Below, in pieces: positions 2,877-20,405 of a stretch of 38,654 bases of DNA. A program made the position numbers and the translations under genes. The DNA is from Candidatus Uhrbacteria bacterium (GTDB taxonomy: Bacteria > Patescibacteriota > Patescibacteriia > 2-12-FULL-60-25), in assembly GCA_903893445.1 (NCBI GenBank), contig CAITMG010000092.1, forward strand, positions 1 to 38,654, read 5' to 3'. The notes beneath the pieces were generated by a model. The model was not told the origin of the DNA, did no database searches, and saw nothing but the letters and a program-made list of their open reading frames with translations. Position 1 is the stretch's first letter. Every line of letters begins with the position of its first letter.

Positions 2877-3959
2877 ATGTCTCTCCAAATCGGCATTGTC
2901 GGTCTTCCAAACGTGGGCAAATCCACGATGTTTCAGGCGATCACGAAAAAAGCCGTGGATTGTGCCAACTTTCCATTTTGTACGATCGATCCAAATGTCG
3001 GCGTGGTTGAAGTTCCGGATGAACGTCTGGAAAAATTGGCCGCAGTTTCCAATGCGCGAAAGATTGTTCCGACAACGATTGAATTTGTTGATATCGCCGG
3101 TCTCGTGAAAGGCGCGTCACAGGGTCAGGGTCTTGGAAATAAATTTTTGGCGCACATTCGTGAGTGCGATGCGATTGCGCAAGTGTTGCGCGCGTTTGAA
3201 AGTGAGGATGTGATTCATGTCGAAAACTCGGTTAATCCGGCACGTGATGCAGAGATTATCGGCATTGAATTAGCGCTGGCAGATTTGGATACGGTCACGA
3301 AGCGTTTTCAGAACGTGGAACGTCAGTTAAAGAGTGGGCGAACAAAAGAACTCGAAGCGACACTTGCGACGCTTCAGCGTGCAAAGGATGCATTGGAAGC
3401 GGGGACAGCCGTGCGTGATTTGGAATGGACGGAAGAAGAGTTGAAAGAATTGAAGCAGATTGCGTTGATGACGCTGAAACCAATGCTGTACGTTGTGAAC
3501 GTCAGCGAAATTCAGTTGCAAGACGGATCATGGAAAAAAGCTGTTGAAGGTATTAAGGGACGTTTTGTTCCGGTGTGCGTGAAGCTTGAAGCCGAACTGG
3601 CGTCGATGACCAAAGAAGAGGCGAAGGAATATTTGGAATCGCTTGGTCAGGAAAAATCTGGACTTGATCGGTTGATCGTTGAAGCCTATGAGGTGCTTGG
3701 TTTAATCACGTATCTCACCTCCGGTGAAATCGAAACGCGTGCATGGACGATCGTGAAAGGTGCAAAAGCTCCACAAGCCGCCGGCGTGATTCATACGGAT
3801 TTTGAAAAAAGTTTTATTCGCGTGGAAGTCACGAATTGGCAAGACTTTGTGCAATACGGCGGAGAAGCAAAATGCCGCGAAAAAGGGTTAGTGCGTATTG
3901 AGGGCAAGGATTACGTGATGCGTGATGGCGATGTGTGCTATTTCCGCGTTGGAGCCTAA
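2877..3959 (+). CDS. ychF: Redox-regulated ATPase/GTPase YchF (Obg family)
   Basis: A 360-residue cytosolic P-loop NTPase, the usual length for YchF/OLA1. It shows the G1 motif GLPNVGKST near residue 8 and the family signature NFPFCTIDPNVGVVEVPDERL after it. The switch II region reads DIAGLVKGASQGQGLGNKFL. The C-terminal TGS domain ends with FIRVEVTNWQDFVQYGG and DYVMRDGDV. Known family members bind ribosomes and use ATP rather than GTP. ATG 2877 is chosen because the family starts directly before the beta strand with MSLQIGIVGLPN; the longer in-frame reading would start inside the previous gene and cover the terminator. No Shine-Dalgarno sequence is visible. Confidence 0.95.
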   Translation: MSLQIGIVGLPNVGKSTMFQAITKKAVDCANFPFCTIDPNVGVVEVPDERLEKLAAVSNARKIVPTTIEFVDIAGLVKGASQGQGLGNKFLAHIRECDAIAQVLRAFESEDVIHVENSVNPARDAEIIGIELALADLDTVTKRFQNVERQLKSGRTKELEATLATLQRAKDALEAGTAVRDLEWTEEELKELKQIALMTLKPMLYVVNVSEIQLQDGSWKKAVEGIKGRFVPVCVKLEAELASMTKEEAKEYLESLGQEKSGLDRLIVEAYEVLGLITYLTSGEIETRAWTIVKGAKAPQAAGVIHTDFEKSFIRVEVTNWQDFVQYGGEAKCREKGLVRIEGKDYVMRDGDVCYFRVGA

Positions 3960-3963
3960 AGAA

Positions 3964-3969
3964 TATACT
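3964..3969 (+). promoter_or_regulatory. -10 box of galU (TATACT)
   Basis: TATACT lies nine bases before the galU ATG, so a transcript starting about seven bases further on would be almost leaderless. No good -35 is seen at 17 bases. Confidence 0.45.
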
Positions 3970-3978
3970 GTTCCCACT

Positions 3979-4851
3979 ATGCAAACCGTACGCAAAGCGA
4001 TTATCCCGGTTGCGGGATTTGGGACGCGATTTTTACCGGCAACCAAGGCCATGCCAAAAGAGATGTTACCGATTATCGACAAGCCGATTATTCAGTATGT
4101 CGTGGAAGAAGCGGTCGCATCTGGGATTACGGATATTATCCTTGTGACGAGTCATGCGAAGCGTCCGGTGGAAGATCATTTTGATGACAACAAGGAATTA
4201 GAAAATTGGCTTTTTAAACAAGGGAAAAAAGATTTGCTGGAGCAGATTCGGGAGATCGGTAAACTGGCGAATTTTGTGTATGTGCGACAAAAGGGTCCGT
4301 ATGGAAATGCGACGCCGGTGTTGAATGCGGCACATTTAATTGGCAACGAGCCGTTTGCCGTGATGTTTGGCGATGATGTGTTTCATTGCAAGGTTCCGCG
4401 ATTGAAGCAGATGATTGATGTGTACGAAAAATATCAAGATCCGGTGCTTGGTGTTGTGAAGGTGGATGCGGAGGGGACAAAGCAATACGGCATTATTGAA
4501 CCTGGCGCGAAAGTGGAGTCGCATGTGTATCAACTCAAAGGTGTGGTTGAAAAGCCAGGACCGGAAAAAGCACCATCCCGACTTGCGGCAAACGCTGGAT
4601 ATATTTTAACGCCAGACATTTTTGATGAAATTCGAAAATTGAAACCTGGGCATGGCGGCGAGTACGTTACGTTGGATGCGATTTATCGTCTCATGAAAAA
4701 ACGACCGGTGTATGCGTGTGAAGTTGAAGGCTCGTATCATGATACGGGAACAAAAATCGGCTGGTTACGCGCGAACATTGAAATGGCTATGGATCGACCG
4801 GATATGGCGGCTGAGGTTAAAGCGATGTTAAAGAGCATTGGGAAGAAATGA
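3979..4851 (+). CDS. galU: UTP--glucose-1-phosphate uridylyltransferase
   Basis: A 290-residue cytosolic enzyme making UDP-glucose from UTP and glucose 1-phosphate, the donor or precursor for envelope glycans. The nucleotide-binding N-terminus reads KAIIPVAGFGTRFLPATKAM followed by PKEMLPIIDKPIIQY. Later come VRQKGPYGNATPVL, the metal/substrate motif FGDDV, and VEKPGPEKAPS, all as in GalU. The length is typical. ATG 3979 is the start matching the family; there is no Shine-Dalgarno sequence, and TATACT is nine bases upstream. The product would feed the glycosyltransferases at 12086-14369 and the polysaccharide genes at 27450-30194, a link by pathway and not by operon. Confidence 0.95.
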   Translation: MQTVRKAIIPVAGFGTRFLPATKAMPKEMLPIIDKPIIQYVVEEAVASGITDIILVTSHAKRPVEDHFDDNKELENWLFKQGKKDLLEQIREIGKLANFVYVRQKGPYGNATPVLNAAHLIGNEPFAVMFGDDVFHCKVPRLKQMIDVYEKYQDPVLGVVKVDAEGTKQYGIIEPGAKVESHVYQLKGVVEKPGPEKAPSRLAANAGYILTPDIFDEIRKLKPGHGGEYVTLDAIYRLMKKRPVYACEVEGSYHDTGTKIGWLRANIEMAMDRPDMAAEVKAMLKSIGKK

Positions 4852-4896
4852 GGGGAACAAAACTCTGCTTAGGACATGTGCCGAATGCTTTTGCGT

Positions 4897-4925
4897 TTTC
4901 AATCTTTGTCGGAACAGGGTAAACT
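4897..4925 (+). promoter_or_regulatory. Promoter of the binding-protein/pilin operon
   Basis: TTTCAA (4897-4902), a 17-base spacer, and TAAACT (4920-4925), ending 11 bases before the ATG at 4937. The expected transcript has a leader of only about five bases. Confidence 0.6.
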
Positions 4926-4936
4926 ATACGGCGACT

Positions 4937-6367
4937 ATGCGTCTTCAACGCTTCGCTTCGCGAATCCTTCCATTGTTTCTTGTTGTAAGTTTGTTTGGTC
5001 AGGGCTGTACGGCCGGACCAGATCCTGCGGCGGCAAAGGCGGCGACAAAAACCGAACTCGTTGTTTGGAATGTTGTTGATGGTGAGGATACCTACGGGCC
5101 GGTGCTCGCGGATTATCACGCCCTGCATCCGTTTGTGACGATTACGTATCGTCGGTTTCGTTTAGAAGAGTACGAGTCACAGTTGTTGAATGCGCTTGCC
5201 GAAGATCGCGGACCGGATGTGTTTATGATCCACAACACGTGGGTCGGAAAGTACATGCCAAAGGTTTTGCCACAGCCGCTTTCAACGCATGTGGCGGTGA
5301 TGACGCAACAGGGGACGTTGCAAAAAACGGTTGTGCCGGTGTTGGTCACCAACCCCACGCTCTCGGTGAAGAACATGAAAAATAATTATGCGGATGTGGT
5401 TGCGAAAGATTTTATCCGCTACGTCAACATGTCGCCGACGCCGGACAAGCGAGATATGCAGCAGCGCGTGATCGGGTTGCCGCTCTCGGTTGACTCCATG
5501 GCGCTCTATGCGAATAAGGATTTGATGAATGCCGCTGGCATCCCGACACTCCCGGATTCGTGGGACGCGTTTCAAGCGGATGTGAAAAAATTAGTGAAGC
5601 TGGATGCGGACGGACAGATCCTGCAAGCAGGTGCGGCGATTGGGACAAGTTCGAATATTGATCGCGCTCCGGACATCCTCGCATTATTGATGATGCAGAA
5701 TGGTGCTCAAATGGTGGATGATAGCGGATTCCCAACGTTTCAAACGATTCCGGCCAAGTTAAGCGGGCTTCGCGATACACCGCCAGCGTATGATGCACTC
5801 AATTTTTATACAGACTTTGCGAATCCGGCGAAGGATGTGTACACCTGGAATGCGCAGCAGCCGAATGCTTTGGACGCGTTCATCCAAGGGAAGACGGCGT
5901 TCTATTTTGGCTACTCCTACGATCTTCCAACGATCAAAGCGAGTGCGCCAAAATTGAATCTTGCGATTGCGCCGATGCCACAAATTGCCGGAAACCCGGT
6001 TGCGAATTTTGCGAACTATTGGGCATGGGTTGTTTCCAAGAAAACAAAAAATCCAGATATCTCGTGGGACTTTTTGAACTTCATGCAACAGCCGACGGAA
6101 ACGTCGAAATATCTTGCCCTCGCAAAACGACCAGCGGCGTTAAAATCGTTGCTCACCGCGCAAGTTGAAGATGAGGACATCGGTGTGTTTGCCTCGCAGG
6201 TGTTAACGGCACAATCGTGGTATCGCGGGACAGATCCGGCATCCGCAGATGTCGCGTTTAATGAGATGATTGATTTAACCGCGTCGAGCACGCCGGAACA
6301 TCTTGGCGCGATTGTGAGTGGAGCTGCGGAAAAGATTACTCAGACCGTGGTCTCGTTAACGCCATAA
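4937..6367 (+). CDS. Extracellular solute-binding lipoprotein, family 1 type
   Basis: A 476-residue exported protein. The signal peptide has a Gly-Gln-Gly-Cys site near residue 24, after which the lipid-anchored protein would begin. The body shows features of the MalE/UgpB-like sugar-binding family: ELVVWNVVDGEDTYGPVLADY near the N-terminus, EDRGPDVFMIHNTWV, a GLPLSVDSMALYANKDLM block, and a C-terminal NFANYWAWVVSKKTKNPDISWDFLNFM block. No ABC permease or ATPase gene is in the window. It ends one base before the first Cys-rich pilin, so it is co-transcribed with the pilin cluster. It may bind a glycan or peptide ligand for surface attachment or uptake, not necessarily for an ABC importer. ATG 4937 precedes a good signal peptide and follows TAAACT. 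Confidence 0.85.
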   Translation: MRLQRFASRILPLFLVVSLFGQGCTAGPDPAAAKAATKTELVVWNVVDGEDTYGPVLADYHALHPFVTITYRRFRLEEYESQLLNALAEDRGPDVFMIHNTWVGKYMPKVLPQPLSTHVAVMTQQGTLQKTVVPVLVTNPTLSVKNMKNNYADVVAKDFIRYVNMSPTPDKRDMQQRVIGLPLSVDSMALYANKDLMNAAGIPTLPDSWDAFQADVKKLVKLDADGQILQAGAAIGTSSNIDRAPDILALLMMQNGAQMVDDSGFPTFQTIPAKLSGLRDTPPAYDALNFYTDFANPAKDVYTWNAQQPNALDAFIQGKTAFYFGYSYDLPTIKASAPKLNLAIAPMPQIAGNPVANFANYWAWVVSKKTKNPDISWDFLNFMQQPTETSKYLALAKRPAALKSLLTAQVEDEDIGVFASQVLTAQSWYRGTDPASADVAFNEMIDLTASSTPEHLGAIVSGAAEKITQTVVSLTP

Positions 6368-6368
6368 T

Positions 6369-7730
6369 ATGGATTTTCGATCTTACGGTATCGTTGCCTT
6401 TCTCGCTGCTGTTTTGTTGTTTCCGGGGACGGCATTGGCTGCGCCAGGGTCACAGGTGAATTGCCGAAAAATTACAGGGACTTGTGCGACGGTTTGCGGA
6501 AAAGGATTAACCGGTGCATCGGGATCGGATTTTTTGCCAGGCGATACGAATGATTGTCCGACGGATCCTATTACCTCAACGACGCAGGCGTGTTGTATCC
6601 CGGATGGGTCCGGCTGTAGTGCGGCTGGTGGATCTTGTACGGATGGATTTTCGTGTGTCGCTGGAAAGGTTTCTGTCTCGGCAACTTGTAAATATGGGAA
6701 AATTTGTTGTGCGGATGCCGCGTCATCGGTCCCTTCAACGAGCGGTCCATCGTGCGCGAGTGTCGGTGGTTCCTGTGAACCGGGAGCCACGTGCACGGCA
6801 AGTTCGTGCGTTCCACGCAGTTGTTCATCTGGGTCTCCGCGTGGCGATATCACATCTTGTCCAAAAGCATCCGGTGGTATTACGCAAATTTGTTGCGCGC
6901 CGCCAACATGCGCCACAACTTGTTCCAATACAGTTGGTGGCTTGATGAAAGCGTCGTGCGCGACGGGTGAAAATGAAAATGCGACGTGTACGATTGCCGG
7001 TGATCCGGATTTGAATAACAAGTGTTGTTCGAGCATTCCTGGTGTGGTGACGATGGGTGGTGGAACAACGGGTTCGACCGGATCGGGTGGTTCTTCGGGA
7101 AGCGGTGCGACCGGAGGAGCAGCAAGCGGCGCATCTGGTCCGTTGACCTGTCAGGACACCTGCACCGGTTCGCATGGTGACATGAAGTCCTCTTGTGACA
7201 CGACGGACGTGAAGCTTAATTCCTGTACCACGGCTGGCGATCCAAGCAATGGAATGGTCTGCTGTGTTCCATCTGCCGTGGCGACCTGTGCGACGTCTGG
7301 GGGAAAGTGTGCCGCTTCTTGCAGTGCATCGGAAACGGCGAGCACGTCGTGTATGAATAAGGCCGGTGAAAAATGCTGTGTCCCAACGAAGGCCTCCGCA
7401 ACGGGTGCGGCAACAGGAGGATTGAAAGCGGGATCTGCTGGGGGATTGCCGACGATCTTGGCGGCTTGTGCACAAAGCGGCGACTGTACGCTGAATGATA
7501 TCGTGAATACGGGTGCGAATGCCGCCAACTTTTTTACGGTCCTTTCGGCAGGATTATTTTTCTTTTCGTTTATTTACGGTGGCGCACGATATCTTTTATC
7601 CTTTGGTCGCAAAGAGTGGGTTACTGCTGGCACAAAGGCGATGACAACGAGCGCGTTGGGGATGGCGATCGTGATGTTTGCGTGGGTGATTGTGAATTAT
7701 GTTGCAAATGCCATTCAAGGAAAAGGATAA
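6369..7730 (+). CDS. Cys-repeat ectodomain fused to VirB2-like pilin hairpin (pilin A)
   Basis: A 453-residue protein with signal peptide MDFRSYGIVAFLAAVLLFPG plus an Ala-rich cleavage region. Next come six cysteine-rich repeats of about 35-50 residues, each closing with Cys-Cys (for example CSAAGGSC ... KYGKICC and CATSGGKCAASC ... GEKCC). A Gly/Ser/Thr linker (about residues 228-258) falls between repeats 4 and 5. The C-terminal 80 residues are two membrane helices separated by a short charged turn (FIYGGARYLLSFGRKEW), the pattern of type IV secretion system pilins of CPR bacteria. The repeats look disulphide-bonded and extracellular. The gene follows the binding lipoprotein after one base. 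It is probably a minor or tip pilin or adhesin. Confidence 0.8.
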   Translation: MDFRSYGIVAFLAAVLLFPGTALAAPGSQVNCRKITGTCATVCGKGLTGASGSDFLPGDTNDCPTDPITSTTQACCIPDGSGCSAAGGSCTDGFSCVAGKVSVSATCKYGKICCADAASSVPSTSGPSCASVGGSCEPGATCTASSCVPRSCSSGSPRGDITSCPKASGGITQICCAPPTCATTCSNTVGGLMKASCATGENENATCTIAGDPDLNNKCCSSIPGVVTMGGGTTGSTGSGGSSGSGATGGAASGASGPLTCQDTCTGSHGDMKSSCDTTDVKLNSCTTAGDPSNGMVCCVPSAVATCATSGGKCAASCSASETASTSCMNKAGEKCCVPTKASATGAATGGLKAGSAGGLPTILAACAQSGDCTLNDIVNTGANAANFFTVLSAGLFFFSFIYGGARYLLSFGRKEWVTAGTKAMTTSALGMAIVMFAWVIVNYVANAIQGKG

Positions 7731-8304
7731 GTTTGTTCTTGCTGTGTTCGTTTGCGCTGCTGTCGTTTGCAGTTCTTCGCTGACGGTTCATCCGGTTTTT
7801 GCTGCCGCGTGCACCGAGGGCGCATTGCAGGATAAGGCAGTCACACTGACGGCGGGCCTTGAAAAACAGGATTGCACAACGATGCCGACGGCTGCACTCA
7901 AAGCGAGTTGTGAGAAATCAAATGCACAGATCGATACGACGGCAACACAAACATCAAATGGAACGGTGAAGCAAATTTGTAAGGGAGGCGTTTGGACCAA
8001 TATTGTTCCTCCGGCTGCAGCTGCGGCTCCGACGGCCAGCCCACGTCAGGTTCAGCTTCCAGATCCGTTAAATGGAGCGAATCTTTTGCAGGTTTTGGGA
8101 AATGTTATTCGTGTCTTTTTAGGAACGGTCGGGGCAATTTCTTTAGCCGTCTTTGTGTATGCTGGCTTAATGTATCTTTTTTCTGCCGGCAGTTCTGACA
8201 TGGTTTCAAAGGCGAAAGAAACGATGAAATATGGAGCCATCGGCTTGTTGGTGATCATGGGTGCCTATTTGCTCACAACAGTCTTTGTGAATATTTTTTC
8301 CTAG
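7699..8304 (+). CDS. VirB2-like pilin with short Cys ectodomain (pilin B)
   Basis: A 201-residue protein with a signal peptide, an ectodomain of about 85 residues with a few cysteines (CTEGALQ..., KQDCTTM, SCEKSN, ICKGG), and a C-terminal membrane hairpin containing LGTVGAISLAVFVYAGLMY and KAKETMKYGAIGLL. It overlaps the previous gene by 32 bases; ATG 7708 is an equally good start. No Shine-Dalgarno sequence is seen for either. Its last 70 residues are nearly the same as those of pilin C, and the DNA there is also very similar, so B and C arose by a fairly recent duplication of the hairpin. Confidence 0.8.
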   Translation: MLQMPFKEKDKFVLAVFVCAAVVCSSSLTVHPVFAAACTEGALQDKAVTLTAGLEKQDCTTMPTAALKASCEKSNAQIDTTATQTSNGTVKQICKGGVWTNIVPPAAAAAPTASPRQVQLPDPLNGANLLQVLGNVIRVFLGTVGAISLAVFVYAGLMYLFSAGSSDMVSKAKETMKYGAIGLLVIMGAYLLTTVFVNIFS

Positions 8305-8309
8305 CCGTT

Positions 8310-8338
8310 TTGGTTTTTGGCTGGTTTCGCGGTACACT
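8310..8338 (+). promoter_or_regulatory. Promoter of pilin C
   Basis: TTGGTT (8310-8315), 17 bases, TACACT (8333-8338); the ATG follows after six bases, so the mRNA would be leaderless. Confidence 0.55.
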
Positions 8339-8344
8339 TGCGCC

Positions 8345-9565
8345 ATGTTCAGGTCACGCTTGTCGCAAAAGACGTTTACCGGTTTTTTTCTAGCTGCTTT
8401 GTTTGTTTTTGGTGGAATTTTTTTTCCGCCGACGCGAGTTTCTGCAAACGCCATTACGGATTTGGTTGATCTCATCATAAACATGCCAAGCGAAAATAAT
8501 ACGCAGTATGAAGGTGTTCTCGCGTGGTGTAAGTGGGCAGCTGCTGTTAATAAAAACCCTGTTTGTGATTTGATCGATCCGGATCATGCAATGACGAAAT
8601 ACAAAAATGTTCCAGCAGGCGAGTGCGATCGACAAAAAAATCCTTGTTGTACAGCTACTCTTGATTTTGAATCCGATAATCAGGATTGTATAGATATTTT
8701 GCTTTTTGATAGTCAGACAGAGGCTGGCAAATCTACACTTTGCGCAAAGTGGCAATCAGATCCGGCTACGATGACGAGATCAAAATTAGCTTACAATAAA
8801 ACGCAATGTTCATCGCGTGCCCTTGAGGTGACGTTCAATTACGTCCAAGCGACAAAAATGGCGTGTCAGCAATATACGAACAAAATTCCTATTTCTGGAT
8901 CAACGGATATTTCGTTATGTGATCCAACATGTGGTGCGTCAAGTCCAACATGTCGATGTGTAAAATTATCAGATTGTAATAACCTCGGGGCTGGTTTAGG
9001 CTCAGCCGGGGCTTTGGCTTCTGGGATGGATTTGAGTACGGGCGCACGAGGTGACGCGGCGCTGGCACGCATTCAGAAAGTGCTAGATACAGCAAAGACT
9101 CAAAAATTATCTGGAACTATTATTGCATCAATTGAAAAATATTTAAAACTTGGTCAGGATGCAAATGCAGAGTTAAAAAAAACGCTTATTACCAACGGTC
9201 AAAGCGCGGCTTCGTTGGCGCCACTGAATGATTTGGCGAAAAAGATTGAAGGGTATGCTGATGCAGCAGAAAAATTGATTCAGATTCCGGTTGAAACGGG
9301 TTCCTCAACGGTGTTGAACAATCCACTTGGAAATACAAGTATTTTGGGTGTGCTTGGTAATGTGATTAAAGTATTTTTGGGAACGGTTGGTGCGATTTCC
9401 TTAGCCGTCTTTGTGTATGCTGGATTGATGTACCTGTTATCTGCTGGAGATCCGGCGATGGTCACCAAGGCAAAAGATACCATGAAATATGGCGCATTTG
9501 GTTTGATTCTTATTATGGGTGCATACGCGTTGACGACGTTTTTCATCAAAACACTTTCCTTGTGA
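8345..9565 (+). CDS. Large-ectodomain VirB2-like pilin (pilin C)
   Basis: A 406-residue protein with signal peptide (residues about 1-30) and an ectodomain in two parts. The first is cysteine-containing (about 50-215: CKWAAAVNKNPVC, CDRQKNPCC, CDPTCGASSPTCRC). The second is a mostly helical, Cys-poor stretch (about 230-325) that may be a stalk. The C-terminal hairpin (about 335-406) is almost that of pilin B. It has its own promoter. Codon use here is more A/T-rich than in its neighbours. The fold of the ectodomain is not recognised. Confidence 0.75.
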   Translation: MFRSRLSQKTFTGFFLAALFVFGGIFFPPTRVSANAITDLVDLIINMPSENNTQYEGVLAWCKWAAAVNKNPVCDLIDPDHAMTKYKNVPAGECDRQKNPCCTATLDFESDNQDCIDILLFDSQTEAGKSTLCAKWQSDPATMTRSKLAYNKTQCSSRALEVTFNYVQATKMACQQYTNKIPISGSTDISLCDPTCGASSPTCRCVKLSDCNNLGAGLGSAGALASGMDLSTGARGDAALARIQKVLDTAKTQKLSGTIIASIEKYLKLGQDANAELKKTLITNGQSAASLAPLNDLAKKIEGYADAAEKLIQIPVETGSSTVLNNPLGNTSILGVLGNVIKVFLGTVGAISLAVFVYAGLMYLLSAGDPAMVTKAKDTMKYGAFGLILIMGAYALTTFFIKTLSL

Positions 9566-9566
9566 T

Positions 9567-10664
9567 ATGAAAAAGATTTTTCTTTCGTTGGCGATGATTG
9601 TTGGCGCGGTGTTCTTTTTTCGATCACCGGCGTATGCGTATCCAGACTGCAGTGATACGGCATTTCGAGCGCAGTGCTATAGCTTTAAGGGAACCGTTCA
9701 AAGCGGGCCATGTTCTGACTCTGGTCGGAAGTTTATTACGGTTGGTGGATCAGCGGTGACATCACTCTCGAGTTCATCGGAAATGCCGGATATCTGTTCA
9801 ACGGGCGGTGCCGGGGCTGGGGGGTATTGTTGTGGCTTGATGCCGGGTGAGGTGTGTAGCAATATTTCCGGTGCAGACTGCCGTCCAGATGCAACCTGCG
9901 CGCAGGTGAATAAGTGTACGATTGAGGGAACGGATTATATTACCTACGCTGATCGTGTTTGTACGGATGGGTATACGTGCTGTGCGAAGGTTAATGATGT
10001 GATTGCTGGATGTGTGGCAACGCCATCGTCTTCAGGAGCATCCGGAGGCGCAAAGGCATATGATGAAACGGCCTGTACGGCGGTGAGCGGTGTTTGCGGC
10101 ACATCTTGTGGAGCTTCTCAGCTTGCTAGCGGAACAGTAAATTGTGGAGAAAAGGATGGAGCGGCGTATGCCTGCTGCTTAGACAAGAATACGTGCACGT
10201 CTGGTGGTGGATATTGTGCGTCGTCTTGTTTAAGTGGTGATTCGCCGGATGCAACGAAGACAGACTGTAGCAGTGGCATTTGTTGTAAGGCGGGCGCTGG
10301 TGCCAGCTCTGGTCTTGGTGGGGCGACGGGCGGCGCATCTGGTGCGGCGGCTGGCGGCACGGGTGTTGGTACGGGAAGTTTGATTCAGGCGAATTCGTAC
10401 ACGTACAATCCGCCGGTTCGTGGAAATGTGAATCAGATTGTTGCGAGCATCATTAAAAAAATTACTCCGTATCTGGGTGGTGTGATGTTGCTCATGTTTT
10501 TCTACGGAGGCGTATTGTGGATGACGGCGGCGGGGGATGCGGCGCAGGTGAAAAAAGCCAAGTCGGTTTTGTCGACATCAGTGATTGGGATTTTGATTGT
10601 GGTCGCGGCATTTACCCTTGCCTCGGCCTTGGTGAAGGTTCTTGGGAATGCGTTGGCTCCATAG
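9567..10664 (+). CDS. Cys-repeat ectodomain fused to VirB2-like pilin hairpin (pilin D)
   Basis: A 365-residue protein. The signal peptide ends near Ala-Tyr-Ala (about residue 24). About four cysteine repeats follow, ending in Cys-Cys as in pilin A (DGYTCC, GAAYACC, SSGICC), then a Gly/Ala/Ser linker and a C-terminal hairpin with GGVMLLMFFYGGVLWMTAAG and a helix ending in VVAAFTLASALVK. One base separates it from pilin C, so the two are co-transcribed. The hairpin is closer to the minimal pilins (WMTAAGD motif) than to B and C. Probably an alternative minor pilin or adhesin. Confidence 0.8.
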   Translation: MKKIFLSLAMIVGAVFFFRSPAYAYPDCSDTAFRAQCYSFKGTVQSGPCSDSGRKFITVGGSAVTSLSSSSEMPDICSTGGAGAGGYCCGLMPGEVCSNISGADCRPDATCAQVNKCTIEGTDYITYADRVCTDGYTCCAKVNDVIAGCVATPSSSGASGGAKAYDETACTAVSGVCGTSCGASQLASGTVNCGEKDGAAYACCLDKNTCTSGGGYCASSCLSGDSPDATKTDCSSGICCKAGAGASSGLGGATGGASGAAAGGTGVGTGSLIQANSYTYNPPVRGNVNQIVASIIKKITPYLGGVMLLMFFYGGVLWMTAAGDAAQVKKAKSVLSTSVIGILIVVAAFTLASALVKVLGNALAP

Positions 10665-10695
10665 ACGCTTTTTCTCGACGTGCTGGCCTCGGATC

Positions 10696-10704
10696 TGGTA
10701 TGCT
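10696..10704 (+). promoter_or_regulatory. Extended -10 promoter of the minimal pilins
   Basis: TGGTATGCT gives an extended -10 (TG, one base, TATGCT at 10699-10704). The -35 region is weak. A leader of about 50 bases ends in the strong site AAAGGAGGTGA. Confidence 0.5.
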
Positions 10705-10742
10705 GGTATCCGTTCCGTATGAACGCTATATCCCAACAACGA

Positions 10743-10763
10743 AAGGAGGTGAACATGACATGA
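10743..10763 (+). promoter_or_regulatory. Strong ribosome site with a two-codon mini-ORF before pilin E
   Basis: AAAGGAGGTGA (10743-10752 region) is followed by ATGACATGA. The first ATG (10755) reads Met-Thr-stop, and its stop overlaps the ATG of the pilin at 10760. GGAGG is five bases from the first ATG and ten from the second. A five-base duplication (ATGAC twice) is the simplest origin. Confidence 0.7.
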
Positions 10764-11158
10764 CATTTTCAAAGAAACAGGTTGTCAGTCTTGCAGCCTC
10801 CATCGGTCTCGCGGCAGCTCTCGTGCTTCCGTCCGTTGCGTTTGCAGCTGATTCTTTGAACGCGAATGACCTTGGCGTCAACGCGATTCAGGGTTCGATC
10901 AAACTCGGCTCCGGCGATATCCGCCAGACCGCAGCAAACATCATCAACGTTGCGCTCGGTTTTCTCGGCATCATTGCCGTCATCATCGTCCTTCTCGGCG
11001 GCTTTAAGTATATGGTCTCCGGTGGAAACGAAGAAAAGACCAGCGAAGCAAAAAAGTTGATTATCTCCGGTATCATCGGTCTTGCGATCATTTTGTCCGC
11101 TTGGGCGATTACGAGCTTTGTGCTCTCGCGCCTTCTCTCGGCAACGCAGTCCGCTTAA
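10760..11158 (+). CDS. Minimal VirB2-like pilin (pilin E)
   Basis: A 132-residue protein: signal peptide ending around Ala-Phe-Ala-Ala, a short polar segment of about 35 residues, and two membrane helices (IINVALGFLGIIAVIIVLLG and IISGIIGLAIILSAWAITSF) joined by a turn with GGNEEKTSEAKK. This is the plain type IV secretion pilin-like architecture, likely the major subunit of a surface filament or conjugation-like channel. It has the strongest ribosome site of the cluster and C-rich codons, suggesting high expression. ATG 10760 is needed for the reading frame. No VirB4-type ATPase or VirD4 is in the window, so assembly genes must lie elsewhere. Confidence 0.85.
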   Translation: MTFSKKQVVSLAASIGLAAALVLPSVAFAADSLNANDLGVNAIQGSIKLGSGDIRQTAANIINVALGFLGIIAVIIVLLGGFKYMVSGGNEEKTSEAKKLIISGIIGLAIILSAWAITSFVLSRLLSATQSA

Positions 11159-11162
11159 TCGC

Positions 11163-11588
11163 ATGCCACACGTGCATATGACATACGCACAACGAATGTT
11201 GCGCATTCCGCTGACCTTGGCCGTGATGGCCGCGGTTTTTGTGCCGCTCGCTTCCTCCGCGCAAGTGAGTTCCGCGATTCAAGGAGGTTTATCTGGGACA
11301 GCCAATGCGGCTGGATACGGATCAACCGCACCGGATCTTGGGACCGTGGTTGGAAAGTTGATCGGACAGCTTCTTGGTCTTGTCGGCGTGATTCTCATGG
11401 CCTACGTTTTATACGGAGGTTTTATGTGGATGACCGCTGCCGGTGAACCGAAAAAAGTCAGCACGGCAAAAGACGTGATTCGTGATGCGATGATTGGGTT
11501 GGTCATTATTGTGACCGCCTACGCGCTGACGAACTTCGTTCTTGTCAATGTGATTGGCAGTGCATTTTCGGGTGTGACGGGTAAATAA
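11163..11588 (+). CDS. Minimal VirB2-like pilin (pilin F)
   Basis: A 141-residue protein with signal peptide, an Ala/Gly/Ser-rich exposed stretch (about residues 35-62) and the two-helix hairpin (GLVGVILMAYVLYGGFMWMT and MIGLVIIVTAYALTNFVLV) around the turn AAGEPKKVSTAK. The start may be ATG 11163 or ATG 11178 (MTYAQRM); neither has a Shine-Dalgarno sequence. It follows pilin E after four bases. The hairpin pattern Y-G-G-x(3)-M-T-A-x-G ... AK ... G-L-x-I-I is shared by E, F, G and D. Confidence 0.82.
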   Translation: MPHVHMTYAQRMLRIPLTLAVMAAVFVPLASSAQVSSAIQGGLSGTANAAGYGSTAPDLGTVVGKLIGQLLGLVGVILMAYVLYGGFMWMTAAGEPKKVSTAKDVIRDAMIGLVIIVTAYALTNFVLVNVIGSAFSGVTGK

Positions 11589-11613
11589 TTTTCGTTGGAC
11601 GTATCTCTCGCTT

Positions 11614-12006
11614 ATGAAACATCTTCAACTGAAACTTGCAGGTTTGACCGCCGCAACGCTCGCGCTTCCGGCAACGGCATTTGCGCAGACGAATCCGTTT
11701 CAGGCCGGACAGACGCTGACCAGTTCGGTCGGTCTCAACGCCTACGGAGCCGGTGCCGCAAATCAAAACTTAACGACCATCATTGGTCGCATCATTAACA
11801 CGGCTCTTGGTTTTCTTGGTGTCGTTTTCTTGTTCCTCGTCTTGTACGCTGGCTTCCTTTGGATGACGGCTCAGGGTGATGAAAAGATGGTGACGAAAGC
11901 AAAGGAAATCATGAAACAGGCCATTGTTGGCTTGGTCGTGATCGTGACAGGGTTTGCCATCTCGAACTTCGTGATGGGTTCGCTCATCAACGTGACATCG
12001 GGATAA
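11614..12006 (+). CDS. Minimal VirB2-like pilin (pilin G)
   Basis: A 130-residue protein: signal peptide to about Ala-Phe-Ala-Gln, a short exposed segment (NPFQAGQTLTSSVGLNAYG) and the conserved membrane hairpin with GFLWMTAQGDEKMVTKAK at the turn. It is the last gene of the array and is followed by a palindrome and a terminator. No Shine-Dalgarno sequence; TATCTC lies six bases before the ATG, so it may also have its own start of transcription. Confidence 0.82.
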   Translation: MKHLQLKLAGLTAATLALPATAFAQTNPFQAGQTLTSSVGLNAYGAGAANQNLTTIIGRIINTALGFLGVVFLFLVLYAGFLWMTAQGDEKMVTKAKEIMKQAIVGLVVIVTGFAISNFVMGSLINVTSG

Positions 12007-17910: not shown

Positions 17911-17933
17911 TTTTGTCCGCGAGCCTCTTTCCC

Positions 17934-17962
17934 TTGACTTTTTCGACTTTCGCGCCTACAAC
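17934..17962 (+). promoter_or_regulatory. Promoter of the hybrid histidine kinase
   Basis: TTGACT (17934-17939), 17 bases, TACAAC (17957-17962). Its spacer lacks the AAA-GCC-TTTT pattern of the modules. Confidence 0.65.
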
Positions 17963-18002
17963 GAGCGCGTTAGGCGTTCCTTCCCAAGAAAAGAGCAAAC
18001 CC

Positions 18003-20405
18003 ATGGAAAGCTCCCCACATTCTGAGATGCCGTCGGAGCAGCGCAAGCAGTTGAAGGTCAGGATTGATGCGCTGATGCGTATCAACGCCTGCCTGGTTTC
18101 GCTTGGACCGTCGTTTGATGAAAACCTTCATCGATTGATCGGGCTTTGTCGCGAGCTGTGCAGTGCGTATCGTGTTGGCTACTTTCGACTCGATGGACGC
18201 CGGTTTGATCGCGTTGCTTGTACGTGCGGCTCAGTCTGTACGTATGCGAGCATGGATGATGTTTTGCAGATCGTGCTCCGGCAGGATCGCCAGAGCGTCT
18301 TCGATGTTGCGGTTGATATGCAACTTCCGTTGACGTTTGGTGGGTCATCCCAACTCGCATCCGTTTTGGGAACGTATCTTTCGCTCGATGAGGAGAAGGT
18401 TGGTGTCTTGATCGCGATTTACGAAGAGGCGTGTGAGCCGGATGACCAGATCAAACAAGGTCTGAGTATCGTGGCGCAAGCAATTGCTTCTGAAGAGGCG
18501 CGACATTATGCGCAGGTCAAGATCCATCGACAAGCGAGTATCATTTCGGCAACGGTTGATGCGGCACGAGATGCGATTTTCATGACGGACCAAAATGGTC
18601 TGATCGTGTATTGGAATCGCGCGGCAGATGCGTTGTTTGGCTGTTCGTCGTCGATGGCTTTGGGCAAAGATTATCGTGCGTTTTTCCTTCAGCCGACGGA
18701 TGTGACGGTGGAAGATCTTTCGTTGCTCGCCGCACCAGTGACTGTCGGCGTTGATCGTTCGTTTGGTCGACGACTTGATGGGTCATTGTTTCCCGTTGAG
18801 TGTACGACGTCGATGCCGTTTATTGACGGAGAATGGCGCGCGATTACGATCGTTCGTGACGTGAGTGAACGCATTGCGGCAACGAAAAAACTTCGTGAAA
18901 GCGAATCGCGTTACCACGCCCTTGCGGATGGACTACCGGATTCGGTCACGGTCGTTGATTCGACGGGCCAGATCATCTACGCGAATGCACAAGCGTTATC
19001 GCTCGCCGGACGGACATTTGCGGAGATTCAAGGAAAGCGTGCACAGGATTTGTGGCCAGCGTTGGCCGCGAGTCCGTTGCCGGATTTCATCCAAATGGTT
19101 CGTGAGAGCCGCGTTTCTCGTGTTGAACGCGTTGATGTTGAGATCAACGGACAACAGATTTGCATCGAGGCGCGTCTGCATCCGATGACGATGAATGGTG
19201 ATACGAACTGCGTCCTTAGCATCGGTCGGAATTTGACGGGTGCGCGAATGGCGGAACGCGAAGCCGAGCATCTGCGCGAGCAGTTGCTGCAGTCTCAGAA
19301 GATGGAATCCATTGGTCGATTGGCTGGCGGCGTTGCCCATGACTTTAACAATCTCCTGACCGTCATTCTGACGAATCTGGAATTGTTGTTCGAAGAACGG
19401 GCATTTTCCGATGACGTGAAGATGTCATTGGAAGAAGTGCAGACGTCCGCACATCGCGCCGCAGAATTGACGAAGAGTCTTTTGGCGTTTAGTCGTAAGC
19501 AGACGATGTCGCCCGTTGAATCTTCGCTCAGCGAAATCGTGAGCGGGACGAATCGGATGCTCGTTCGAATGTTGGGCGAAGATATCTCCATTGATACGAA
19601 GACGATGGGCATTTGTCCGGTCTATGTTGATCGGGCGCAGATCGAACAGGTGGTTCTGAATCTGGCGATTAATGCACGCGACGCCATGGCGCACGGCGGA
19701 TCGTTGAAGATCATGACGGAAGAGATTTCTTTGGACACTGTTGAGGCTCGTCGTTTGGATGTTCCTACGGGGATGTATGCGCAGCTGCGCATTTGCGATT
19801 CGGGTCACGGGATTCCGTCTGAGAATCTCGACAAGATCTTTGAACCGTTTTTTACCACCAAGCCGGTGGGCAAGGGGACGGGCTTGGGGCTCTCGATGGT
19901 TCATGGGACGATTCGACAGCACGGTGGCGCGATTCGCGTTGAATCTGAGTTGAGTCGTGGAACCACGTTTACCATCTTTCTTCCTCGTTCGAATGGACGA
20001 GGGCAGCGTACGATTGCCTTGTCGGGTATCCGAACTCGGGGGACGGGTCGAATTCTCCTCGTTGAGGATGAGCCGGACGTTCTTCGGGCAACGACGCGTC
20101 TGATCGAGCATCTTGGGTACACGGTGATCGCCGCCAAAGATCCGAAAATTGCGCTGGATATCGCTCGTGATCCGGATGCGGTGATTGATCTTCTCTTAAC
20201 GGACGTTGTGATGCCGCAGATGAACGGTCGTGAGTTGTGGGAGCAGATCCGCCGGATTCGTCCGGGACTCCCCGTGCTCTTTGCCTCTGGATATACGAGA
20301 GACGTGGACATCATGCGACAGGTCTTTGACGAAGGGTTGAGCTTTATTGAAAAACCCTTTGGATTGACGCAACTTTCTGTGAAAATTCGGGAGCAACTCC
20401 CGTAA
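18003..20405 (+). CDS. Hybrid sensor histidine kinase (GAF-PAS-PAS-HisKA-HATPase-REC)
   Basis: An 800-residue protein without membrane helices, so a cytosolic sensor. Order: a GAF-like region (about 20-190), PAS 1 (about 195-290, [20 protein letters not shown]), PAS 2 (about 305-410, [19 protein letters not shown]) and a coiled linker. Next is the kinase core with H box [18 protein letters not shown] (His446), N box [11 protein letters not shown]1 DSGHGIP and G2 [11 protein letters not shown]-terminal receiver domain has VEDEPD, phospho-acceptor Asp734 ([12 protein letters not shown]) and EKPF. All catalytic residues are present. No response regulator or target gene is adjacent. ATG 18003 is downstream of a good promoter; the longer reading starts before it. 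Such hybrids are uncommon in small CPR genomes, and transfer is possible. Confidence 0.93.

Follow-up and report, generated by a model that had tools for sequence, protein, structure and literature searches.

A seven-gene VirB2-like pilin array with putative beta-defensin-like ectodomains in a Candidatus Uhrbacteria genome

Patescibacteria are known to carry arrays of VirB2-like pilin genes, and passages of one survey count 441 of them, with 2-11 genes each, in 383 assemblies (PMC12102498). In Southlakia epibionticum ML1 a pilin series is described as essential in excerpts of two reports (PMC10633639, PMC12857230), one of which (PMC10633639) states, for the single species tested, that epibiotic growth cannot do without the type IV secretion system (T4SS) and its pilin genes. 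Since such arrays are already published for this phylum, the array that we describe here is not new in itself. It consists of seven consecutive open reading frames (ORFs), A to G, on the forward strand at positions 6369-12006 of a 38,654-nucleotide stretch of Candidatus Uhrbacteria DNA (the window), the full length of contig G000:C92 in a draft genome of 1.19 Mb with a completeness of 97.55%; the organism is a tiny bacterium that probably lives on surfaces. Like the published arrays, it comprises tandem divergent pilin genes, seven of them and thus within the published range of 2-11, in a genome with a VirB4-like ATPase and PrgI. Unlike the published arrays as these passages present them, it directly follows a solute-binding protein gene and does not lie beside virB4. 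The cysteine-rich or defensin-like ectodomains, the split into major and minor pilins and the one strong translation start found here likewise have no counterpart in the passages of PMC12102498, PMC10633639 and PMC12857230.

The cysteine units in two of the seven proteins are like animal beta- and big defensins (PF13841, PF00711, PF14862) in the order and spacing of six cysteines, the final Cys-Cys pair and the Gly-Gly before the second cysteine, in a predicted helix plus three strands, and in having these families as their best PDB and Pfam neighbours. They are unlike them in standing in tandem within a membrane-anchored bacterial pilin and in mostly not being cationic. Beta-defensin disulphides join C1-C5, C2-C4 and C3-C6, according to a passage of PMC7203481. 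Portions of PMC11561630 describe the trans-defensin group as animal and also report bacterial cis-defensins, which have the cysteine-stabilised (CS-alpha-beta) motif and share with our units the occurrence of defensin-type domains in bacteria. Our searches of an open-licence library turned up no report of defensin-like domains in Patescibacteria. On balance we favour the view that the window holds a chromosomal T4SS pilin cassette of an Uhrbacteria-group Patescibacterium, in which E forms the body and A-D are minor or tip subunits with beta-defensin-like contact heads.

Hairpin family, secretion genes and the candidate major pilin

The sequence-only reading of this DNA had described seven proteins with a common C-terminal two-helix hairpin of the VirB2-like pilin family. 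In agreement with it, all seven ORFs match the Pfam family T4SS_pilin (PF18895), six above the curated cut-off of 26.6 bits and D exactly on it, and the hairpin is C-terminal in each. The slot-1 pilin A (6369..7730, 453 aa, 30.7 bits) bears six cysteine units closed by Cys-Cys, followed by its hairpin at 7503..7703, and D (9567..10664, 26.6 bits; hairpin 10431-10628) bears four. The slot-2 pilins B (7699..8304, 28.5 bits; hairpin 8089-8283) and C (8345..9565, 32.5 bits; hairpin 9350-9541) have other ectodomains, with 6 cysteines and no Cys-Cys in B and 14 cysteines and one Cys-Cys in C. The remaining three are bare, again as the earlier reading had it: E (10760..11158 after correction of its start, 132 aa with signal peptide, 44.7 bits; hairpin 10919-11122), F (11163..11588, or starting at 11178, 30.9 bits) and G (11614..12006, 37.6 bits). 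Signal peptides were judged by eye from the translations.

The hairpins of E, F and G also resemble the Mbov_0395 family pilin-like conjugal transfer protein (NF045849, a model of 80 positions that covers the hairpin only), reaching 39.1-39.6 bits at a cut-off of 40, with E-values of 3e-10 to 4e-10; six of the seven proteins match this model, all below the cut-off. None of the seven matches TrbC/VirB2 (PF04956) at an E-value of at most 1, and a related 774-aa protein of genome G082 scores 26.7 bits against that family (cut-off 27.9). AlphaFold2 modelled E as three helices, among them residues 27-62 and 67-107, with a predicted local distance difference test (pLDDT) score of 78.2. An assembly ATPase elsewhere in the genome had been named as a check on the pilin assignment, and contig C46 indeed encodes a VirB4-like ATPase (PF19044, 95.8 bits) together with PrgI (32.0 bits). 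Matches to PF19044 were found in 32 of the 33 genomes searched and to PF18895 in 57 of 57. In G648, from a different class of the phylum, a PrgI gene lies ~6 kb from an array of eight hairpin genes, the first of which carries the repeat. The window's genome further encodes VKOR on contig C62 (89.1 bits), and a DsbA-like protein adjoins hairpin genes on contigs C48 and C81.

Named relatives, found via the E pilin, are chiefly Candidatus Uhrbacteria and next Falkow-, Magasanik- and Buchananbacteria. A FastTree phylogeny of hairpins from the window, 18 other same-family arrays (each of 6 or 7 genes) and nine other hairpins grouped the first, second, third, E and last genes largely by array position; support is weak at several deeper nodes, slots 5 and 6 intermingle and D joins slot 2. 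The hairpin of A falls in the slot-1 clade. Those of B and C are sisters (support 0.999), which accounts for seven genes here as against six in most relatives, and the pair looks like a tandem duplication. Across 19 arrays the slot-1 ectodomains span 42-846 aa and 2-62 cysteines on hairpins that are still orthologous, with mean pairwise hairpin identities of 46.6% in slot 1 (19 sequences) and 42.8% among slot-2-like hairpins (22). Such unequal cargo on orthologous hairpins bears out the earlier proposal of exchangeable ectodomains and supports A-D as minor pilins in which these have been swapped. Cysteines number 7 in 15,962 hairpin residues and 1,491 in the 27,592 residues flanking them on both sides (244 ORFs), a distribution that fits both hairpin ends being outside.

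E hairpins form a clade with a support of 0.997 and a mean pairwise identity of 84.5% (19 arrays), and among 30 orthologues the window's E shares 64-85% identity with the first 22 and 45-57% with the other eight. Over 20 loci the gap 5' of E measures 81-748 nt, with a median of 135.5 nt; the other array gaps (n=86) have a median of 25 nt, and 21 of them are also at least 60 nt, gene starts for these measurements being set by a simple rule. In the window this gap contains an extended -10-like site (TGNTATNNT, 10696..10704, forward strand) and a near-perfect Shine-Dalgarno sequence (GAAAGGAGGTGA, 10741..10752, forward strand). Every one of the 20 E genes has 10-12 nt of contiguous Shine-Dalgarno complementarity to what we take to be the 16S tail; none of the 106 other array genes has more than 8. 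The extended -10-like pattern occurs in 15 of the 20 E upstream regions versus 5 of the 106 others; a general sigma-70 scan across the array gave no excess over shuffles. On these sequence features E is likely the major pilin. The sequence-only reading had proposed one or more major pilins among E, F and G: conservation and the ribosome-binding site uphold it for E, and both marks are missing from F and G.

Beta-defensin likeness of the cysteine units

The canonical unit reads C-x3-GG-x-C-x3-C-x~9-C-x~5-CC. In A, units 1-4 occupy 6462..7022 (6462-6596, 6615-6710, 6762-6902 and 6909-7022) and units 5-6 occupy 7146..7379, with unit 6 at 7287-7379. A strict motif, C-x5-7-C-x2-6-C-x6-22-C-x3-12-CC, is found 6 times across the three window ectodomains that have at least 6 cysteines, compared with a mean of 0.08 in composition shuffles, none of which reached 6 (0/2000). 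Over 49 ectodomains with at least 6 cysteines, from the window and the further loci covered, it occurs 20 times against 0.385 expected (0/1000 shuffles reach 20). Cys-Cys pairs alone are weaker evidence, with 11 in the window, 6.8 expected and 79 of 2000 shuffles reaching 11.

A first repeat alignment, which included irregular units, aligned poorly and was replaced by A3 and A7, the latter a profile of 25 units. When A7 was searched against all PDB sequences, the six top-ranking rows were all members of the beta-defensin superfamily, crotamine among them (E-values 0.013-0.14); an earlier 17-unit profile had given one row of this superfamily (0.2). When 19 units or unit pairs were scanned against Pfam, 8 matched PF13841 (best E-value 2.1e-5) and 6 matched PF00711 (best 5e-4), and seven of the nine families matched were defensins, myotoxin or gamma-thionin. 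By this measure the most beta-defensin-like unit of the window is unit 6 of A, with 19.8 bits against PF00711 (cut-off 21; E-value 8.2e-4) and 16.9 bits against PF13841. Sequences of relatives exceed the PF13841 cut-off of 22.2 bits (L059, 25.3; L056, 23.9; G082, 26.8). Shuffling all residues except the cysteines abolished the matches to PF13841 and PF00711 (0/57), indicating that positions other than cysteine contribute; one of the 57 shuffles matched PF24552 Defensin at 0.017. Twelve units outside A7, 11 retrieved from genomes with the A7 profile and one from the named loci, matched PF13841 (5), Defensin_big (3), PF00711, Myotoxins and Meleagrin (1 each), along with FXa_inhibition, EF-hand_8, DUF5545 and WAP (1 each). 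A profile of these twelve gave three PDB rows, all beta-defensins, at E-values of 1.0-1.3. For A-G, Pfam families for the units came only from scans of units or unit pairs: the whole proteins gave none at an E-value of at most 1. The repeats of A and D drew no NCBIfam match, and full-length A against PDB sequences returned one weak unrelated row.

Units 3-4 of D (10065..10295, forward strand), modelled with AlphaFold2 from a 19-row alignment, reached a pLDDT of 80.0 and a predicted template modelling score of 0.63, the first unit folding as a helix and three strands (H2-6, E10-12, E19-30, E33-40) and the second as three strands. Foldseek returned 14 rows for this model, none significant, of which six were helianthamide, big defensins or HBD4. 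With VIA-align, 7 of 32 chains reached a Z of at least 2 (2.1-3.0), and all seven have a beta- or big-defensin fold.

The reverse search, with PF13841 against the 380 genomes of the class set (whose class name we take to be ABY1), gave only two matches over the cut-off, in G030 and G082. The former lies in a pilin array; the latter is the 774-residue protein mentioned above, which has a T4SS_pilin hairpin and is followed by a bare hairpin gene. As an array takes up ~6 kb of a ~1 Mb genome, two out of two in pilin-array proteins are not expected by chance. At an E-value of at most 0.05, 24 of the 380 genomes match; of the 22 below the cut-off, three (G024, G025 and G012) have their match in arrays, and the rest are mostly short frames, some with stops. 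A search of 57 genomes with PF00711 at an E-value of at most 10 yielded nothing over the cut-off and carries no weight, because 13 of 14 control genomes matched as well. By pattern, profile and model the cysteine units thus resemble the beta-defensin fold, at modest absolute scores. Being mostly not cationic, they are called here beta-defensin-like in fold only, and are not filed as defensins. The earlier idea of a new disulphide-rich domain has to be trimmed in one respect: with this resemblance, the domain is not wholly unknown.

A7 matches at an E-value of at most 0.001 occur in 13 of the 380 class genomes and in 4 of the 379 genomes of a phylum set (2 genomes are in both). The class search gave 23 matches, every one in a hairpin protein, and the 14 repeat-bearing ORFs of the 79 named loci likewise have the hairpin (14/14); the phylum search added two matches, the first to a hairpin protein and the second to a protein of G548. 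Most arrays carry other cysteine-rich ectodomains. In G548 (L144:10314-12701, G548:C4) two defensin-like units stand N-terminally in a 795-aa polytopic membrane protein that has no hairpin, and its gene precedes PrgI and VirB4-like genes. An identity as VirB6 found no Pfam support for this protein, nor BLAST similarity to the polytopic protein of the window's own genome. Lying in hairpin proteins or beside T4SS genes, the module follows the secretion system.

Neighbouring genes and hairpins on other proteins

Directly upstream of A lies a solute-binding (lipo)protein gene (4937..6367, forward strand; PF01547, 105.6 bits on ORF 4838-6367), its start and lipobox assigned by eye. Homologues are present at 33 of 40 array loci, and such a gene lies at most 300 bp from a hairpin gene in 45 of the 79 named loci. 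A galU-like gene, named by eye, also neighbours the array (3922-6367 including the solute-binding gene) and has a homologue at 25 of the 40 loci. Further along the window, 17913-20405 encodes a large hybrid histidine kinase with PAS and receiver domains, in a genome of 1.2 Mb.

The genome has 13 PF18895 matches, namely the seven array genes and six on contigs C59, C45, C48 and C81: a 3716-aa protein with TIG and Big domains, a 631-aa Big_5 protein and four proteins with an internal hairpin. Secreted proteins of 3.5-3.7 kilo-residues with an N-terminal E-like hairpin occur at L044:1900-13050 (G000:C59), L107:8815-19464 and L108:3887-14620; they have about 160 cysteines and are preceded by a 625-654 residue hairpin protein (with Big_5 in the window's genome). 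In the giant protein of this genome TIG, Big_5 and Big_7 domains follow the hairpin, and the protein matches the myxobacterial disulphide repeat TIGR02232 at L044:1900-8000 (29.5 bits, cut-off 20.8). The giant-protein hairpins branch beside E (support 0.974), and on sequence grounds the giant protein is an E-like pilin with a TIG/Big-domain tail. Hairpins also lie inside longer proteins with other C-terminal parts (L046:1-1741, L045:621-3775, L047:838-3956), one of which has a weak Peptidase_C39_2 match below the cut-off and two of which adjoin DsbA-like thioredoxins; these might serve the T4SS as partners acting on the wall or in redox reactions.

Proposed mechanism and alternative explanations

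In the mechanism that we propose, each array product would be exported via its signal peptide and lodge in the membrane as a hairpin of two helices whose ends, as the cysteine positions suggest, both face outward. E would be made abundantly from its own strong translation start and build the main part of a VirB2-like filament or channel, which the rarer A-D would join as minor or tip subunits, capping or decorating it with their N-terminal ectodomains pointing outward. The ectodomains of A and D would be chains of small beta-defensin-like domains, cross-linked by the VKOR/DsbA system into a robust, oxidation-locked and fast-evolving contact surface for a partner cell. Pilus assembly, the proportions of the subunits, disulphide formation and the binding of a partner or host are what we infer in this scheme. 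Because most units are neutral or acidic, they are unlikely to kill by charge, and a binding role is the more plausible guess.

Several observations weigh against this pilus with defensin-like heads. Array and virB4 are on separate contigs in the window's genome and far apart in the near-complete G012 and G013. No solved pilin was matched when hairpin and E profiles were run against PDB sequences, where the best rows (designed propellers, Cas13a, rhodopsins) were judged to be chance, and Foldseek of E gave no pilin in the best 50 of 319 rows and 0/319 at an E-value of at most 0.001. The thick pilus of Nanosynbacter lyticus is judged unlikely to be a T4SS in a passage of PMC12206443. As to the heads, the best Foldseek E-value for the D units is 1.0, and the VIA-align Z of at most 3.0 is low, as expected for 35-40 residues, and proves nothing alone. 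Two of ten units or unit pairs scanned singly exceed a Pfam cut-off, neither of them from the window, and the genome searches with PF00711 and PF13841 found nothing in the window's genome. Net charge is zero or negative in 25 of 30 units (mean -1.6), and the rarity of the repeat in the class set makes it one ectodomain type among several.

The hairpin could instead be a mere membrane anchor that fixes A-D and the other hairpin proteins at the cell surface, outside any pilus, with E-G forming small membrane assemblies. Its six further occurrences in the same genome, with very different partners, would suit an anchor, as would the fact that a pilus of such type has never been seen. Nevertheless, the profile names the family as T4SS pilin, the giant-protein hairpins stand beside E, where a cargo-bearing copy of E would be expected, and array and T4SS genes share one locus in G648, so that we regard an anchor as rather improbable. 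A closer call, falling only a little short of even, is that the cysteine repeats converged on the beta-defensin pattern with no common origin with animal defensins, which would make the likeness uninformative on function. Chance likeness comes more easily to domains of ~35 residues, and both the modest scores and the mostly acidic or neutral units are in keeping with convergence; the loss of PF13841 and PF00711 matches in the cysteine-fixed shuffles, and the placement of both over-cut-off reverse-search matches in pilin-array proteins, speak against it. These two results argue for the fold and not for common descent, and we are doubtful of the further step that a trans-defensin fold exists in bacteria, borne by a secretion machine. 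Lastly, the ectodomains might not be adhesins but form a variable coat by which the cell evades phages or grazers. Ectodomains in slots 1 and 2 vary widely in length and cysteine number beside a constant E, and antigenic variation is mentioned for pilin arrays of other bacteria in a passage of PMC12102498. No result here separates adhesion from evasion, and we think a coat unlikely.

For the way in which Patescibacteria recognise and hold partner cells, the pilus reading now offers a candidate for the major pilin, together with contact heads that are separable and gene-encoded, which could allow host range to be traced to individual ectodomains. Should the heads indeed have the beta-defensin fold, this fold, described as animal in the portions of PMC11561630 cited above, would also exist in bacteria, in a different job, and the defensin-like heads would give a secretion pilus a contact tip of a new kind.

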